Shown: one piece after another, positions 3,652 through 31,004 of the stretch | How positions within the stretch are numbered: position 1 is the stretch's first letter | Layout of the letters: each line of letters opens with the position of its first letter | Assembly: GCA_012961955.1 (NCBI GenBank) | Contig: DTYH01000286.1 | Location: 1-32,591, forward strand | Direction of reading: 5' to 3' | DNA from: Desulfobacterales bacterium | Lineage (GTDB): Bacteria; Desulfobacterota; Desulfobacteria; Desulfobacterales; DTYH01 | Length of the DNA: 32,591 nucleotides | Made by a program: the position numbers and the translations under genes | The notes under the pieces: model-generated | What the model saw: the letters and a program-made list of their open reading frames with translations, nothing else | What the model was told of the DNA's origin: nothing | Database searches by the model: none

Positions 3652-6600
3652 ATGAGAAAGGAGATCGACGAGCCCTCTCCAAAGGAGAAGCTTTCCGCGT
3701 ATGAAGCCCTTTTTCATGGGATGAATATCTTCGCAGCAGTCACGGATGAAACAGGGAAACTCACGCTGATAAACAGGACTACCTTATCAGGTCTGGGATA
3801 CAGTGAAGAAGAGGTCCTGAAAAAGCCCTTCTGGGAGGCGCCTTGGTTTCCGAAGGAATGGCAGAGCCCGATAAAGGAGTCAGTGGAAAAGGCCTTAAAA
3901 GGGGAAGGCAACCAGCTCGAGTGCGAGGTTGTTACGGGCAGAGGGAAGATTCTACCTATTTTTCATCGTTCGATTCCTTTAAGGAACAAACGCGGGAGGA
4001 TTACTGGCGTAATACTCGAAGGGATGATAATCAAGGAACTCAAGGATGCTCAAAATTCCTTACGGAGGATACTAGATTCTACCCAAAGCGGGATCGTGAT
4101 AATAGATGCCGATACACATGAAATATTTGACATCAATCCGTATGCGGCCAAAATGATTGGCTTACCCAAAGAGGAGATTATTGGTCGTACCTGTCACAGG
4201 TTTATCTGTCCAGCAGAGAAAGGGAAGTGTCCGATTAAAGATCTTGGGAAGACAATAGACAGGTCAGAACGGATACTTCTCACAGGGAACGGCAAGAGTA
4301 TACCGATTCAAAAGACAGTAACCCGCATAAGATTCAATGGAAAAGAATACCTGGTCGAGAGCTTTTTCGATATCACAGAGATAAAGGAAAGGGAGCGAGA
4401 GCTTGCCACATTGAGTATGGCGGTTGAAAACGCCATGCATGGGATCGCTGTCCTTGACAAGGAAGGTAGGGTTGAGTATCTGAATCCTTTCATTCTTAGG
4501 ATATGGGGGTATGGTCCGGAGGATAAGGAGGAGATGATTGGAAAGCCTGCCACGGACTTCTTTGAGTCAGACTACAGGGAACAGGTGGCTCGATTCATCT
4601 TCAAGGCGTTCAAGGAAGGAGGCAGGGGTGACTTCCTGGCAGAGAGGAAGGATGGCACGCACTTCTGGGTCAGGATGGCTCTATTTCCCAATATGGATAA
4701 AGCGGGTGATGTATTAAATGTCATTGCATGTGTGGAGGATATCACAGAACAGAGAAGGACTCAAGAGGAGCTCCAGCGGTACGTTGACAACCTCCTTACC
4801 TTTAATGCCAGGCTGGATACGAACGGAACAGTTGTCATGGCGAACAGGACGGCAGTGGAGGCTGCCGGTCTCAAATACGAGGAGGTCGTTGGTCACCATT
4901 TGAGTGAGAGCTACTGGTGGTCTTATGATCATAAGGTTCAGGAGCGACTAAGGCAAGCAGTTTCTGAGGCAGCTCAGGGAAAGACCGTGATGTATGAGGA
5001 GAAGGTGAGGGTAAAGGATGGCTTTATCGCTATCCAGTTCAGCTTGAGACCTGTGTTTGATGATGAAGGGAACGTGGAATATCTTGTGGCCGAAGGCCAG
5101 AACGTTACCTCTGTAAAGGAGATGCAGACAGAGGTGCAGAAGGCGTACGACCTGATAAACGCAATGTCGATCTTCTGTGCGATGCTGGATAAAGATGGGA
5201 GGGTGGAGTTTGTTAACAGAAGAGTGCTTAAAGATCTCGGATTTAATGAAAAGGAAGTAATAGGAAGACCTTTCTGGGAGATAGAATGGTTTCCTGAAGG
5301 GATAGGCGAAAAGGTAAAGGAGACCATGGATGAGACCTTTAAAGGGAAGAGGTACCGAATTGAAACACAGGTCATATCTAAGGCCAGTAAGAGGTCTTTC
5401 CCCGTCCTGTTGAACTTTACTCCCATGTTTGACTACGAAGGAGAGGTTAGGGGTGTTGTAGCTGAAGGCATGGCGATTTCAGAGCTGAAGAGGCGGGAGG
5501 GAGAGCTGGGCAAGTACCTCCACTTACTGAATTCCATGAGCAATTTTGCTGCTCTCTTTGATACAGACGGAAGATTTATGTTTGTAAATGAGACAAGCCT
5601 TGAAGGTACTGGTTTTAATAAGGAGGATGTAATCGGATTTCCTGTGTGGGAAACAGGCTGGTTTAGCCCTGATGAAGAGATCAGCTCGGTCATAAAGGAC
5701 GCGGTCTTTCTCGCCTTAGAGGGAAGGAAGCTCCAGTTTGAGATAAATATCTTTGAGAAGGATGGTAATTCATTTCCTGCACTTACCAATGCCGCACCCC
5801 TTTTAGACCCTGAGGGGAATATCGTCGGTGGTGTGCTTGAGGCTAAGCCGATAGGAGAATTAAAGCAGATCGAGGATGAGCTGAGGCGAGAGACGACTAA
5901 GTTCAGGGCCATGGTTACGGTTATGGAGGAGGGGGTCGTATTTGCAGACAAGAGCAATGTGGTGACCGAGGTAAACGAATTCTTCTGTAAATTTATAGGG
6001 ATGCGGGCCAATGACATCGTAGGTAAGACCCTTGAGGATCTCCACCCGAAAAGGCTCTACAGCCGATTACGGGAGATAATATTTAACTTTCGCATCCATC
6101 TCCAATCACCTCCGGTGATCATACAGCGTCGATTAAAGGACGCAGAGATAATCATGCGTATTCAACCCATCTATAGAGAGAGGAAATACGAAGGCGTACT
6201 TTTGAATGTTGTGGATGTGACGGAACTGGTTACAGCAAGAGAGGGGGCAGAACGGGCGAGCAAGATGAAGAGCGAGTTTCTGGCCAATATGAGCCATGAA
6301 ATTCGGACTCCGCTGAATGCGGTGATAGGCTTCACCGATATGTTGCTTGATACCAATCTGGATAAGGATCAGATCGATTATGTAAAGACGATCAAGACGA
6401 GTGGTGAGGCGCTACTCTCCCTGATCAACGACATCCTTGATTTTTCCAAGATCGAGGCTGGAGAACTCGACCTGGAGGAGATCGAGTTTGATCCAGAACT
6501 CCTTGCCTATGACGTGTGTGACCTGATCCAGCCCAGAGTTGAAGGAAAACCTGTGGAGATAATATGTCGTATAGGGCCAAGGCTCCCATCCCTGGTAAGG

Positions 6601-7827
6601 GGTGATTCTGTGCGATTCCGGCAAGTCCTGACCAATCTGATGGGAAACGCCTCCAAGTTTACCGAGTCAGGAGAGATAGAGCTCTCCATTGATGTGGACG
6701 AGGAGGATGACGAGAGGATAAAGCTTTATGCAAAGGTACGGGACACAGGGGTCGGGATTCCGCAGGACAGGCTAGGCACGATCTTTACACCCTTTCGGCA
6801 AGCCGATAGTTCTACAACACGAAGATACGGTGGCACCGGTCTAGGTCTATCCATATGCAAACAGATATCGAACCTTATGGGCGGTGATGTCTGGGTGGAG
6901 AGCGAGCCTGGGAAGGGGAGTACATTCCATTTTACGGCTTGGATGAAGAAGGGAAAAGGTAAAGAACCCAGGAGGTTCAGGCCTGTCTCCCTATCCGGCA
7001 AGAAGGTACTTATCGTGGATGATAACCAGACCAACCTGGATATCCTGAAGCACGTCTTAGAGTCGGCCGGGATGCGCGTGGTTTCCCTCGTAAATAGCAC
7101 GGAGGTTGTGCCTACTTTAGAAGGTGCATTGAATGCAGGTAAACCTTTTGATATCTGCGTCCTAGACATTCAGATGCCCGGTATGAACGGGTATGAAGTG
7201 GCACAGCGGATTCGAAATTCTGTCTCACAGGTTTCCCATATCCCGCTCCTTGCCCTTTCTTCCTCGATGGAGAGGAGCGCCAAAAAATGCGGGGAAGCTG
7301 GGTTTGACGGTTTCTTGAACAAGCCGATCCGGAGACAGAGGCTGTTTCAGATGCTTGAAAGGATGCTTGGTGACAAGGAACTCAGAGAGGACATGGACGA
7401 GGAAGGAGAGAAGAAGATAATTACTCAGTATACGGTTCGGGAAGGCATGAAGCATTCTGTGCGTATACTCCTTGCGGAGGACAATCCGGTTAACCAGAAG
7501 CTGACAAAGATGATGCTGACCAAGGCCGGGTATCAGGTGGAGGTGGCCAATAATGGTCGTGAAGCGGTCGGAAAATACACGTCTTCCCCTGAAGACTTCG
7601 ACCTGATATTCATGGATGTCCAGATGCCGGAGATGGACGGAATGGAAGCTACAAGGAGGATTAGACAGAAAGGGTTTAGATCTGTTCCAATCATCGCCAT
7701 GACGGCCCATGCCATGAAGGGCGACAAGGAAAAGTGCCTCGAGGCCGGTATGAATGATTATATCACAAAGCCGATCAAGAGAGAGGTTGTTTTTAAGATA
7801 ATTGAGAAATGGATGTTTAGGAGATAA
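3652..7827 (+). CDS. Seven-PAS hybrid sensor histidine kinase with two receiver domains
   Basis: A 1391-residue cytoplasmic signalling protein; no membrane segment or signal peptide is visible. About seven PAS modules are seen: residues 20-130, 134-245, 252-375, 377-495, 502-615, 625-745 and 751-865. A HisKA dimerisation domain follows, with phospho-acceptor His882 in [16 protein letters not shown], then a HATPase domain (N box [10 protein letters not shown] boxes DTGVGIP and GGTGLGLSI). Two receiver domains complete the protein, with phospho-Asp at 1172 ([11 protein letters not shown]) and 1322 ([11 protein letters not shown]). PAS modules 1, 5 and 6 share a PFWE/PVWE-xx-WF signature. PAS2 has a Cys-rich insertion ([15 protein letters not shown]). 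The start is supported by AGGAGG at 3641-3646, six bases from the ATG. Phosphate probably passes from His882 to the receivers. No Hpt domain or output domain is present, so the final target is unknown. Signal unknown; class certain. Confidence 0.95.
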
Positions 7828-24582: not shown

Positions 24583-24687
24583 GTTAGAGAAAGCCACCGA
24601 CATCAATCGGTGGTAATTACCGGTTAGAGCTGACGGTGGTTTAAAGCCACCGTCAGCGCAGACCGTTAGAGGTCGTAGTTCTCTAAC
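24583..24687. terminator. Three-part hairpin cluster between convergent genes
   Basis: An outer pair GTTAGAGAA (24583-24591) and TTCTCTAAC (24679-24687) encloses two hairpins: CCACCGA/TCGGTGG (24594-24613) and GCTGACGGTGG/CCACCGTCAGC (24629-24657, 7-base loop). The second stem is perfect and strong. It lies between converging genes, so it could end transcription from both sides, although no long T run follows. The right arm overlaps the last codons and stop of the minus-strand gene. The motif GTTAGAG occurs three times here. The ends resemble the insert at 20331-20439. Confidence 0.55.
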
Positions 24688-25267
24688 GAGGTTTACATAT
24701 AACTTCCTTTACCTTTAGGTCAAGAAAATTGGTGCTATTTGCAGGCTGGACTACTAAGGCAGTATCTGCCCCCTTTCCTGTTCCTCCTACGGATATTACA
24801 TCCTCATCAGTTCGCACAAGACCTGCATCTGCGGCCATTAGTGTCAATTCGACCGCTACTTTTGTTCCCTGTCCGAATATCCTCAGGGTATAGGCAATAA
24901 TTTCATCCACCTGATAGGTGGATAGCTTAATTCTCACTCCTCGACCAACGCCTCCAAATGCATGTTGGCAGGTCAAAACAGCAACTCCTTTTGACTCTAA
25001 TTCCTGACGGGCTTCTTCACTAAGTTCTTGAAAGTTAGGTTTTATAAAACCTGTTACATGGGTTACTGCAATGATCTTAATACCCGGGTCAAGTATTTCC
25101 AGGGCTTCAAAGGCTGTCTTCCCACTGCAAGTTGCAACAAGGACCTTCCTGAGTCCAAGCTCGCCTGCACGTTTAGAAACCATTTCAAGGGTCCTTCTGG
25201 TGTTCTTCGGGCCGGGTTCTTCAAAATATCGGCACTGGATATCCTTGTAAGCTGCCGACTCTGTCAT
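24683..25267 (-). CDS. Stand-alone pyruvate-kinase C-terminal-like protein
   Basis: 194 residues, related to the alpha/beta C-terminal domain of pyruvate kinase (PK_C) but lacking the catalytic barrel. Visible features: NTRRTLEMVSKRAGELGLRK, VLVATCSGKTAFEALEIL, IIAVTHVTGFIKPN, VELTLMAADAGLV and a glycine-rich ISVGGTGKGADTA. In pyruvate kinase this domain binds the allosteric effector. The free-standing family is widespread in archaea and anaerobic bacteria, with no proven function that I know. By analogy it may bind a small phosphorylated ligand. GGGAGG lies upstream of the ATG on the minus strand. The gene is alone, converging on the tldD-ATPase pair. Family assignment is good, function unknown. 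Confidence 0.85.
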   Translation of the reverse strand: MTESAAYKDIQCRYFEEPGPKNTRRTLEMVSKRAGELGLRKVLVATCSGKTAFEALEILDPGIKIIAVTHVTGFIKPNFQELSEEARQELESKGVAVLTCQHAFGGVGRGVRIKLSTYQVDEIIAYTLRIFGQGTKVAVELTLMAADAGLVRTDEDVISVGGTGKGADTALVVQPANSTNFLDLKVKEVICKPR

Positions 25268-27429: not shown

Positions 27430-28413
27430 ATGGGAACAAAAATATTGAAGCAGGCCAAAGAGGTCCTTCAGATCGAGGCTGAAGGAATCTTGAACCTAGT
27501 AAATCGTGTTGATGACAAGTTTGAAGAATTGGTAGATTTGATCTACCATTCCAAAGGACGGGTTATTCTAACAGGTATCGGCAAATCAGGCATTGTGGCC
27601 CGAAAGATTGTCGCTACCCTTAACAGTACTGGGACTCCTTCCCTTTTTCTTCATCCGGTTGAGGCAATGCATGGAGACCTGGGGATGGTAAGACCGGATG
27701 ATGTTGTAGTTGCCCTTTCCAATAGTGGCGAGACGGATGAGCTAAACATGCTCATTCCGAGCATAAAGGCCATAGGTTGTGTCCTCGTTTCGTTTTGCGG
27801 AAGGGTGGATTCCACCCTGGCTCGAAACAGCGATATTGTCATCGACGTAGGCGTAGAACGTGAAGCTTGTCCTTTAGGGCTTGCGCCCACCGCCAGCACT
27901 ACTGCCCTTCTAGCCATGGGAGATGCTTTAGCTGTTTCTCTCGTCCATAAACGCCGCTTCAAACCAAGCGATTTTAAAAGATTTCACCCCGGTGGTAACC
28001 TGGGTCAACGCCTTTCTGTTCGGGTGCGTGAGATAATGCTTACCGGGGAACTTATTCCTACTGTACGTGCCGGTGTAAGTATGAAGGAGGTGATTGAGGA
28101 GATCAACCGGTTACAGATGGGTGCTGCTCTTGTTATTGACGAAGACGATACCCTTGTTGGTATCGTGACCGATGGTGATATTCGGCGTTTTCTCATCCAC
28201 AGCGATCAAATACACGAACGGAGGGTGGAGGATGTTATGACCAGAAATCCAAAAACCGTGCCCCCTAATACGCTGGCATTGGATGCCCTGACCATGATGG
28301 AGAAGTACGAGATTACGATCCTCCCCATAACCAACTCTGCCAAAAGGGTTCAAGGTATATTGCACCTTCACGATATCCTGGGAAAAGGAGCATTTAAATT
28401 CAATGGGGTCTGA
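27430..28413 (+). CDS. kdsD: D-arabinose 5-phosphate isomerase (KdsD/KpsF/GutQ family)
   Basis: 327 residues. It interconverts D-ribulose 5-phosphate and D-arabinose 5-phosphate, the first step towards Kdo, a sugar of the lipopolysaccharide core. An N-terminal SIS sugar-isomerase domain (about 40-175) contains GIGKSGIVARKIVATLNSTG, HPVEAMHGDLGMV and ALSNSGETDEL. Two CBS domains follow (about 203-262 and 272-325; AALVIDEDDTLVGIVTDGDI). Length and layout match the family. No Shine-Dalgarno sequence is visible before the ATG, only an A-rich stretch. The next gene overlaps its last 11 bases. The other Kdo genes (kdsA, kdsB, kdsC) are not here. The finding implies a Gram-negative envelope. Confidence 0.94.
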   Translation: MGTKILKQAKEVLQIEAEGILNLVNRVDDKFEELVDLIYHSKGRVILTGIGKSGIVARKIVATLNSTGTPSLFLHPVEAMHGDLGMVRPDDVVVALSNSGETDELNMLIPSIKAIGCVLVSFCGRVDSTLARNSDIVIDVGVEREACPLGLAPTASTTALLAMGDALAVSLVHKRRFKPSDFKRFHPGGNLGQRLSVRVREIMLTGELIPTVRAGVSMKEVIEEINRLQMGAALVIDEDDTLVGIVTDGDIRRFLIHSDQIHERRVEDVMTRNPKTVPPNTLALDALTMMEKYEITILPITNSAKRVQGILHLHDILGKGAFKFNGV

Positions 28414-29365
28414 TACTAAAGAATACAGGCCCCCAAAGGGTCTGATTTGTCCGATAATTACTCCGTTGACAGACAAGAAGCTACTTGACGAGGCATCGCT
28501 TGAGAAGCTTATCCGACATGTTGAACCGTACATAGACGCTATTCTACTGGGAGACATATCCTTTGGAGAGGTCCTTTTTTTGAATTCAAGGACAAGAGAG
28601 GATCTGATAGCCAGAGGGTTCGAGATCATTGATGGGCGGCTGCCGATACTCGTCACAATCACAGATGAAACAGCGGAAAAGACAAATAAGAATATGTACA
28701 GATTTGAGTCTATTATTGAAAGATCAGGCTACACGGGAGAGATCTTCTGGGTCGATTATCCTATTTACTACCATAGCAACCGTAAGCTACCACAATTCTA
28801 CAGAGAATTATCGGAAAATACAAAGATTCCCTTTATAATAGGGAATGATCCACGCCTGATCAAGAATAATAAGATTCCGGTGAGACACAAAAATATTCGT
28901 ACCAGTATAATGAAGAATCTCGCCAACTTAGAGTCAATCAAGGGCTTGATCTTCTCAGGGACATTAAATCGGGCTCTGAATTATCAAAAGGGGCTGAGAG
29001 ATCGGAAGGATTTTAGGTTTTACGATGGGAACGAAGGCACTTTTTTAAAAAGGCCTAGCTCCAGCGGGGTTGTGGCTGGAGGAGCAAACCTCCTCCCTGA
29101 GGCCTGGCGAAAGATTACATATTCTTCCCTGAATCTGTATGATGTTCAAAGAGAGTATCGCGATTATGTAAGGCATATATGGAGGACAGGCTCCATGCTT
29201 CAGGCCATCTACGACCTTTATGGTAAAAATCCTGGAGTAGTAATGAAATACATCCTTTATCTAGCAGGGCTTATTCCAAACAGCGTGACCGCATCTGGAG
29301 AGAGTGTGGGACCCGATGAGGAGCGGACCATAAAGGCAGTCATTAAAGAGTATGAGATTGTATGA
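28403..29365 (+). CDS. Divergent DapA-family (dihydrodipicolinate synthase/aldolase) protein
   Basis: 320 residues, overlapping kdsD by 11 bases. The fold is that of DapA/NanA class I aldolases: PKGLICPIITPLTD at the front, YPIYYHSN in the middle (Tyr119, 122 and 123 near the usual catalytic Tyr), SIKGLIFSG with Lys180 at the Schiff-base position, and SSGVVAGGANLLPEAW for the GxISxxAN strand. The usual GTTGE pocket reads GDISFGE, so the Thr-Thr pair that binds the carboxyl group is missing. This argues against true dihydrodipicolinate synthase. A lyase or aldolase acting on another sugar acid is more likely, perhaps linked to the Kdo pathway given its neighbour, but this is inference. The intact Lys suggests it is active. 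Confidence 0.85.
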   Translation: MGSDTKEYRPPKGLICPIITPLTDKKLLDEASLEKLIRHVEPYIDAILLGDISFGEVLFLNSRTREDLIARGFEIIDGRLPILVTITDETAEKTNKNMYRFESIIERSGYTGEIFWVDYPIYYHSNRKLPQFYRELSENTKIPFIIGNDPRLIKNNKIPVRHKNIRTSIMKNLANLESIKGLIFSGTLNRALNYQKGLRDRKDFRFYDGNEGTFLKRPSSSGVVAGGANLLPEAWRKITYSSLNLYDVQREYRDYVRHIWRTGSMLQAIYDLYGKNPGVVMKYILYLAGLIPNSVTASGESVGPDEERTIKAVIKEYEIV

Positions 29366-29669
29366 GTGTTTAGTTTCAGGCCAATCCAAAATATTCATGC
29401 CAATTACGAACAAAATTGCACCTTAGCTTGTAAATATTCGGTTATCCTGTGAAAGTCCTAGAGTACCGGGTGAAAGGACTAAGGATTGACGGGTAAGGAT
29501 TAGGGAGTAAAGGAGTCGCCAATATGTTTTTTTGGATGGGGGCAACCTGGAAGACTCTGTCTTCTTAGCTCTGAGGAGCAAAGAAAATGAGGTGGCGCAG
29601 ACAGATACACTCTTTTTAGAGGGCTCGAGTGTTAAAAAAGAAAGAATTTTCAGACGAGTGGAGGTCAGG
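29366..29669. other. Short gap before the phosphofructokinase gene
   Basis: About 300 bases. An open frame continues upstream of the chosen phosphofructokinase start as far as a TTG at 29532, but those 46 extra codons lack family resemblance and a ribosome site. At 29470-29513 there are loose GGACTAAGGATT / GGTAAGGATTAGG direct units. Nothing else stands out. Confidence 0.5.
29660..29664 (+). promoter_or_regulatory. Ribosome binding site that fixes the phosphofructokinase start
   Basis: GGAGG lies five bases before the ATG at 29670. It favours this start over the TTG at 29532 in the same frame, which has no comparable site. Confidence 0.75.
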
Positions 29670-31004
29670 ATGAAAGAAGATATTCTTGATACATCGATTC
29701 CTGTCCTGGGAAAACCCAAGGTTCCTTCTCCAATCGCATCGATAAACGATCCTTTGCGATCTCGTTCCTTTGTGTCAGACAATGAGCGGATACTCTTAAA
29801 CATTCTTGAGCACGAAGTTGTGGAAGGAATAGAGGCCGGTAAAAAATGCCTTTCGTTTGAACGAGCAGGCCCACGGAAAAGAATATACTTTGACCCCAGC
29901 AAACTTCGTTGTGCCATCGTGACATGTGGAGGCCTCTGTCCTGGAATAAACGATATTATACGGGCCATAGTACTCGAACTGTATCATGTATATAAGGTGA
30001 AAAATATAGTCGGTATACGATACGGACTTCAGGGATTTATTCCCAAGTACGGCCACGACGTGATTGAGCTAACTCCTGATATCGTGTCGCACATCCATGA
30101 GATGGGGGGGACGATTTTGGGTTCTTCGAGGGGGCCGCAGGACATAGGAGAGATCGTGGATGCCCTTGAAAGGATGAACGTGGGACTCCTTTTCGCCATC
30201 GGGGGGGATGGAACCCTGAAGGCAGCTACCAGGATTGTTGACGAGATACTAGAGAGGGGATTAAAGATCTCCGTAATCGGTATACCCAAGACCATCGATA
30301 ATGATATCTACATGGTAGAACGTTCCTTTGGTTTCAGCACTGCTGTAGAGGTTGCTACTCACGCCATCCGTAGTGCACATATAGAAGCTTTGGGTTTTCC
30401 AAACGGGATCGGGTTGTTGAAACTCATGGGACGGAACTCGGGATTCATCGCTGCTACAGCCACCTTGGCATTACGAGATGTCAACTTTGTTTTAATCCCT
30501 GAATCGGACTTTGACTTGGAAGGTCCTAACGGTCTCCTTGAGGCATTAAAAAGACGATTGTTAGAAAGAAAACACGCGGTTATTGTGGTTGCCGAAGGGG
30601 CAGGTCAAAAATTTTTCGGCAATAACAAAGAAGAACGTGATGCATCAGGAAATATTCGACTTAAGGACATTGGCCAGTTTTTAAAAGATGCAATTCTTGA
30701 ATACTTCAATCAAGAGGGCATGGAAGTCAACTTGAAATACATAGATCCAAGCTATATGATTCGGAGCCTCCCCGCAAACACAAGTGACAATATCTTTTGT
30801 GGCTTCCTGGGGCAGAGCGCGGTTCATGCGGGAATGGCGGGGAAGACGAAGATGTTAGTGAGTTCCCTGAATAACCACCTTGTGCATGTGCCTATGCACT
30901 TGTCTGCAGGACGTCAGAAGAGAGTGGATCTCAAGGGAAAGTTGTGGCTCAGCGTACTTGAGACAACAGGTCAGCCGAGTCTGAAGAACGAAAGAGATGA
31001 TTAA
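29670..31004 (+). CDS. 6-phosphofructokinase, plant-type (long) subfamily
   Basis: 444 residues from the ATG at 29670. It phosphorylates fructose 6-phosphate in glycolysis. Core motifs: IVTCGGLCPGINDIIRAI, GIRYGLQGF, GSSRGPQD, IGGDGTLKAATRI (178-190), GIPKTIDNDI (Lys207, catalytic Asp210), IEALGFPNGIGLLKLMGRNS and FVLIPESDFDL. The phosphoryl-donor positions are Gly181 (GGDG, the ATP-type residue) and Lys207 (PKTIDND, shared with PPi enzymes). This Gly/Lys combination is that of plant ATP-PFKs, so ATP is the more likely donor, although PPi use cannot be excluded. An N-terminal extension of about 85 residues precedes the catalytic core, as in plant-type enzymes. The family is common in deltaproteobacteria and spirochaetes. 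The gene stands apart from the kdsD pair by 304 bases. Confidence 0.92.
   Translation: MKEDILDTSIPVLGKPKVPSPIASINDPLRSRSFVSDNERILLNILEHEVVEGIEAGKKCLSFERAGPRKRIYFDPSKLRCAIVTCGGLCPGINDIIRAIVLELYHVYKVKNIVGIRYGLQGFIPKYGHDVIELTPDIVSHIHEMGGTILGSSRGPQDIGEIVDALERMNVGLLFAIGGDGTLKAATRIVDEILERGLKISVIGIPKTIDNDIYMVERSFGFSTAVEVATHAIRSAHIEALGFPNGIGLLKLMGRNSGFIAATATLALRDVNFVLIPESDFDLEGPNGLLEALKRRLLERKHAVIVVAEGAGQKFFGNNKEERDASGNIRLKDIGQFLKDAILEYFNQEGMEVNLKYIDPSYMIRSLPANTSDNIFCGFLGQSAVHAGMAGKTKMLVSSLNNHLVHVPMHLSAGRQKRVDLKGKLWLSVLETTGQPSLKNERDD

Follow-up and report, generated by a model that had tools for sequence, protein, structure and literature searches.

A lysine-less DapA-like protein encoded beside kdsD in Desulfobacterales

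The window, that is, the whole stretch of DNA analysed here, is the 32,591-nt contig DTYH01000286.1 of a Desulfobacterales bacterium (assembly GCA_012961955.1), read on the forward strand. Three neighbouring genes on its plus strand were assessed. The first, kdsD (27430-28413, +), encodes a KpsF/GutQ family arabinose-5-phosphate isomerase with a SIS domain (PF01380) and two CBS stretches (PF00571), and its TIGR00393 score of 326.8 bits, compared to a cut-off of 203.7, identifies it as a full KpsF-family protein. The second (28403-29365, +) is an open reading frame of 320 amino acids that encodes a DapA-like protein, and its start overlaps the end of kdsD by 11 nt (28403-28413, +). A preliminary description of this DNA had called the two genes fused by overlap; the overlap is there, but in the window they are two separate frames and not a fusion. 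The third gene of the kdsD-DapA-like-pfk order is a 6-phosphofructokinase-like gene (pfk; 29670-31004, +). Its longest frame, 29532-31004, scored 692.4 bits on NF005301 (cut-off 400), and the probable start at 29670 was picked by eye from relatives. The KpsF/GutQ-KdsD isomerases are neighbours of the DapA-like gene only and are built from other domains (SIS and CBS). In E. coli, kdsD is followed by kdsC instead of a DapA-like gene.

The DapA-like protein matched PF00701 (DHDPS) at 41.7 bits, above the gathering cut-off of 22.1, and both the reading frame and its likeness to DapA, as first described, are real. NanA and the KDG aldolases (YagE and the archaeal KDG aldolase) belong to this same domain family. 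The best NCBIfam match was the DapA equivalog model TIGR00674, at 43.7 bits, which is below its cut-off of 206.15. Models for NanA and for KDG aldolases also scored far under their cut-offs, with 22.3 bits for PRK04147 (cut-off 281), 13.9 for TIGR00683 (382) and 23.3 for Arch_KDGaldase (390). Among solved structures the best matches were 3pb0 and 1o5k, which are listed as dihydrodipicolinate synthase (PDB match E 4.6e-14). An hhalign comparison of the family (72 members) with a reference set (26 sequences) gave a probability of 99.7% and an E of 1.9e-26, with the same register at Lys161 as the alignments described below. The homology, which covers most of the length of the protein, predicts a (beta/alpha)8 barrel fold; the AlphaFold model, made from a two-sequence input, had a mean pLDDT of 52 and was set aside because of its poor quality. 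Only one other PF00701 match was present in the source genome, a canonical DapA that scored 231.9 bits on TIGR00674. The DapA-like protein, though homologous to DapA, falls short of what defines DapA or the class I pyruvate aldolases.

Residue columns were compared between the 72 family members and the 26 references, which comprise E. coli DapA, NanA and YagE and otherwise sequences from the same phylum. The 72-row alignment omits the partial or duplicate loci L016, L019-L022, L045-L047 and L049. In E. coli DapA, K161 is described as the lysine that forms a Schiff base with pyruvate (PMC3862839), T44, Y107 and Y133 are described as the catalytic triad with R138 in the active site, and mutation of K161 is stated to largely impair activity (PMC3369909). 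All 26 references have Lys in the Lys161 column, compared to none of the 72 family members, in which this column holds Ile (57), Val (7), Met (4), Leu (3) or Cys (1). Four MAFFT modes were concordant on this assignment. For the window protein, profile-profile alignment paired Ile183 (28949-28951, +) with DapA Lys161 and placed Lys180 (28940-28942, +) against DapA Ile158, three positions earlier. Lys180 had initially been taken for the catalytic lysine that remains in the protein. That assignment does not hold, as residue 180 is out of register with Lys161 and is Lys in just 12 of the 72 members. E. coli NanA and YagE keep the Schiff-base lysine, unlike the DapA-like family, and it is also kept, as K167, in GudL, a putative 5-KDG aldolase that is termed homologous to DapA in PMC11775122.

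Most of the remaining DapA catalytic set has been lost as well. In the Y133 column just 12 of the 72 family members have Tyr, and in the R138 column 6 have Arg. Residues at Y107 are mostly aromatic (Trp in 28, Tyr in 27 of 72). The T44/T45 pair is not kept, Thr being absent from the residues listed for the family at either position, where the register varies with the MAFFT mode. At the columns of T44, Y107, Y133 and R138 the window protein has Ser or Ile (depending on alignment mode), Tyr, Gly and Leu, respectively. The replacement of the Thr pair and GTTGE by GDISFGE (residues 50-56; 28550-28570, +), noted from the start, was borne out. GTTGE is absent clade-wide, and the other seven rows of the first alignment read DxxWGE. 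Because the whole clade is without the DapA signature, the change of motif is, as judged from the alignment, not a chance one. Features shared with DapA are the GE that follows the strand 2 motif, and N134, which is Asn in 72/72 members. The loss of Lys161 and of most of the DapA catalytic set means that the usual pyruvate Schiff-base chemistry would be unavailable at its usual place in this protein.

Maximum-likelihood analysis placed a single branch, with a support of 100/100, between the 72 family rows and the 26 references, leaving the family outside the DapA, NanA and YagE references. This tree was rebuilt without NanA, YagE and L121, the references with the three longest branches, because the long NanA branch and the long family branch may join falsely. 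The rebuilt tree had no long end branches, and its 25 family rows and 23 reference rows were again split at 100/100. Both trees are unrooted. The DapA-like gene belongs to a discrete clade apart from the references and does not lie within true DapA, which on this point supports the preliminary description. A named relative, at 48% identity, comes from the Desulfobacterales MAG JABXJW010000278.1. The family thus differs from DapA in its missing Schiff-base lysine, its missing GTTGE, the loss of Y133 and R138 in most members and its separate position in the tree. This is important to note because matches to DHDPS models lead by default to a name as a lyase or DapA. Such a name is probably wrong for this kdsD-linked clade, since its members are missing the lysine needed for such chemistry.

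Of 389 genomes sampled in the class, 26 carry the DapA-like gene, as do 51 of 395 sampled in the phylum, the window's own genome being included in both counts. A search of the 395 genomes with a broader profile, in which up to five candidates were scored per genome, returned the same 51 genomes, each at no less than 280 bits; below them the scores drop from 281 to 91 bits, the value of the next whole match. The next five matches (G514, G687, G418, G704 and G540) were canonical DapA with GTTGE and the lysine, and no kdsD match was found within approximately 2 kb of these five dapA loci. In two genomes the DapA-like gene is incomplete: in G222 it is split between two frames (loci L045 and L049), and in G274 it was matched only over model positions 1-185. 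Genome G321 has two copies on two contigs (L039 and L048), and an extra family fragment of 78 model positions (74 bits) lies on another contig of G695. None of the 89 stretches of viral contigs that matched a pattern encoded a relative of the DapA-like protein. No paper on a kdsD-linked DapA-like protein was among the titles and abstract openings listed from the open-licence PMC literature, which does not prove its absence in print.

The family has a set of conserved residues of its own. All 72 members have N126, N148, G186, E211, F214, P218, G222 and W235. Nearly invariant positions (n = 72) are R166, T167 and R190, each in 69 members, K171, N164 and R127, each in 67, D118 in 66 and H124 in 65; a further conserved lysine, K282, is present in 61. 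A segment of the type D-x-P-x-x-Y-H-S-N-R-x-L-P stands out, together with a second of the type K-x-x-N-x-R-T-x-x-x-K, in which the window protein has R for the first K. Acidic and polar residues that are fully or almost fully conserved fall, by alignment to DapA, close to the ends of strands 4, 5 and 7 of the barrel, and neither K171 nor K282 is aligned with the strand 6 lysine of DapA. The conserved residues may be seen as a putative new pocket, with basic residues that would bind phosphate.

Gene order was compared around 76 DapA-like loci, and the pairing with kdsD on which the preliminary description had drawn is conserved, as 70 of them have kdsD immediately upstream in the same orientation. 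These 76 include L016, which has the same profile score as L025 and is probably the same gene, and L045 and L049, which are one broken gene. All three were counted as adjacent, and subtraction of L016 and L049 gives 68 of 74. The window itself, G054 (L020, seen adjacent) and G743 are left out of the count. Of the six loci with no kdsD upstream, four (L056, L079, L080 and L088) extend over 1.4 kb in that direction, and the other two (L046 and L077) stop too early for kdsD to be seen. In the genomes of L077, L079, L080 and L088, kdsD is found elsewhere. Counted by hand from positions, kdsD adjoins the DapA-like gene in 42 of 46 genomes, the exceptions being G496, G596, G747 and G695. Estimated positions indicate that most class loci have an overlap of the two genes similar to that of the window. 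In G093 (L018:2915-4942), kdsD and the DapA-like gene form a single frame of 675 amino acids by way of an out-of-frame repeat of the kdsD end, which could be either a real duplication or an assembly error.

The third gene, pfk, follows the DapA-like gene in 20 of 26 class loci. Among the class loci without it, L025 and L032 have little room, and L041, L042, L043 and L047 have at least 0.9 kb free. The kdsD-DapA-like-pfk order was also seen in 6 of 20 more distant phylum loci (L084-L087, L089 and L090); pfk was not seen in the stretch fetched for the other 14. Several distant loci have, by eye, a purF-like gene upstream of kdsD. Loci without the DapA-like gene were also compared, 20 of them, drawn from the 24 genomes with kdsD over cut-off among 28 gene-lacking genomes examined. 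In 18 of these 20, pfk comes directly after kdsD. One of the other two is without pfk, and the second (L136, in G060) has an insert, a DAHP synthase-chorismate mutase gene (L136:1872-2951) between kdsD and pfk, in the slot of the DapA-like gene. The simplest reading is an old gene order whose middle, DapA-like gene has been lost in many genomes. Gain of the DapA-like gene between kdsD and pfk is the alternative.

Values of dN/dS, calculated with a Nei-Gojobori script for close pairs chosen by hand from the tree, ranged from 0.07 to 0.28 in 11 of 11 pairs and indicate purifying selection. Co-occurrence with the Kdo pathway was assessed in genomes with and without the DapA-like gene. A kdsD over cut-off was present in 46/46 genomes with the gene as compared to 24/28 without it, and kdsA over cut-off in 44/46 and 26/28, respectively; the source genome has kdsA. 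Transaldolase (PF00923) was matched in 70 of 74 genomes and was missing from 2 of the 46 with the gene and 2 of the 28 without it. A role for the DapA-like gene as a replacement for a missing transaldolase or KdsA was considered and dropped, as neither tracks the gene. Because most of the gene-lacking genomes checked keep both kdsD and kdsA, the DapA-like gene is an optional extra that the Kdo pathway does not require.

The DapA-like protein is neither DapA nor a standard pyruvate aldolase. We give an even chance to the reading that a former DHDPS-type barrel has been kept as an accessory of KdsD, having lost its usual Schiff base while binding a sugar phosphate or sugar acid. Under this proposal, the predicted DHDPS-type (beta/alpha)8 barrel, in which Lys161 and most of the DapA catalytic set are lost, would have a pocket that now binds a phosphorylated sugar (or sugar acid) belonging to the Ru5P-A5P-Kdo-8-P route. 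Candidates for such binding, as placed by alignment, are a new polar set of D118, H124, N126, R127, N148 and N164, to which R166, T167, K171, R190, Y207 and E211 may be added. The protein would act together with KdsD and tune the supply of A5P, either as a regulatory pseudoenzyme or as a partner subunit. An obligatory step is less likely than tuning, since many genomes have kdsD, kdsA and pfk and yet no DapA-like gene. If the DapA-like protein does control KdsD, an early enzyme of Kdo synthesis would gain a partner.

The step from neighbourhood to function in this proposal is a presumptive one, as the link to sugar phosphates comes only from the neighbouring genes, and adjacency to kdsD alone does not equal interaction. 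The six loci with no kdsD upstream count against an accessory of KdsD, as does the presence of pfk as the next gene in only 6 of 20 distant loci. The occurrence of kdsD without the DapA-like gene in related genomes would also agree with a function that has nothing to do with KdsD.

The missing lysine and the optional occurrence of the gene tip the balance slightly towards a regulatory pseudoenzyme and away from an enzyme of new chemistry. Lysine mutants of E. coli DapA retain slight activity, which tempers the reading of a lysine-less protein as inactive. The main alternative, a possible one, is an active enzyme of the DHDPS fold that acts on a sugar phosphate or Kdo derivative by Schiff-base-free chemistry, for example as a lyase, isomerase or hydratase. 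It would use the invariant E211 and the D118/H124/N126/R127 cluster. The acidic and polar residues conserved around the ends of strands 4, 5 and 7, the purifying selection and the linkage to two genes for sugar-phosphate enzymes are all consistent with such an enzyme. However, these candidate catalytic residues are drawn from sequence alignment, and a gene that is absent from many pathway-keeping genomes would imply that the reaction is optional. It can be suggested, tentatively, that E211 and the DxPxxYHSNRxLP segment form the basis of a new active site that needs no lysine and carries out a reaction, as yet undescribed, with A5P, Kdo-8-P or a relative as substrate. An enzyme of this kind would be new chemistry in a classic fold.

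A hitch-hiking paralogue, or one in decay, that plays no part beside KdsD is a further reading, which we regard as unlikely. Its presence in only 26 of 389 class genomes, the split gene of G222, the partial match in G274 and the few genomes in which it lies away from kdsD are in keeping with this reading. However, dN/dS is low in all 11 pairs, residues are invariant in all 72 members and kdsD adjoins the gene in most loci. Slightly less likely still is a class I pyruvate-dependent aldolase acting on Kdo, Neu5Ac or KDG, with Lys180 or another lysine as the nucleophile. Homology to PF00701 over the cut-off, the neighbouring kdsD and the conservation of other lysines (K171 in 67/72, K282 in 61/72) would suit such an enzyme, but the Lys161 position is without Lys in 72/72 members, Lys180 is Lys in only 12/72, K171 and K282 are out of register with the strand 6 lysine, and the NanA and KDG models score far under their cut-offs. 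The novel aldolase step on a sugar acid that was originally envisaged for this gene is, in the form of an ordinary class I reaction, not supported, because such a reaction depends on the Schiff-base lysine. A second dihydrodipicolinate synthase or lysine-pathway back-up is barely credible: TIGR00674 is the best NCBIfam match, but the 43.7 bits stand against a cut-off of 206.15, a canonical DapA (231.9 bits) is encoded elsewhere in the genome, the active-site lysine is absent and the protein lies outside DapA in the tree.

Two further genes were observed in the window. One (24683-25267, -) encodes a stand-alone PK_C (pyruvate kinase C-terminal domain) protein, a relative of which (L088:4545-5114; 33.5% identity, E 1.7e-29) lies approximately 600 nt downstream of the DapA-like gene of L088. 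The other (3652-7827) encodes a sensor histidine kinase of large size, in which seven PAS_9 stretches and two receiver domains were matched.
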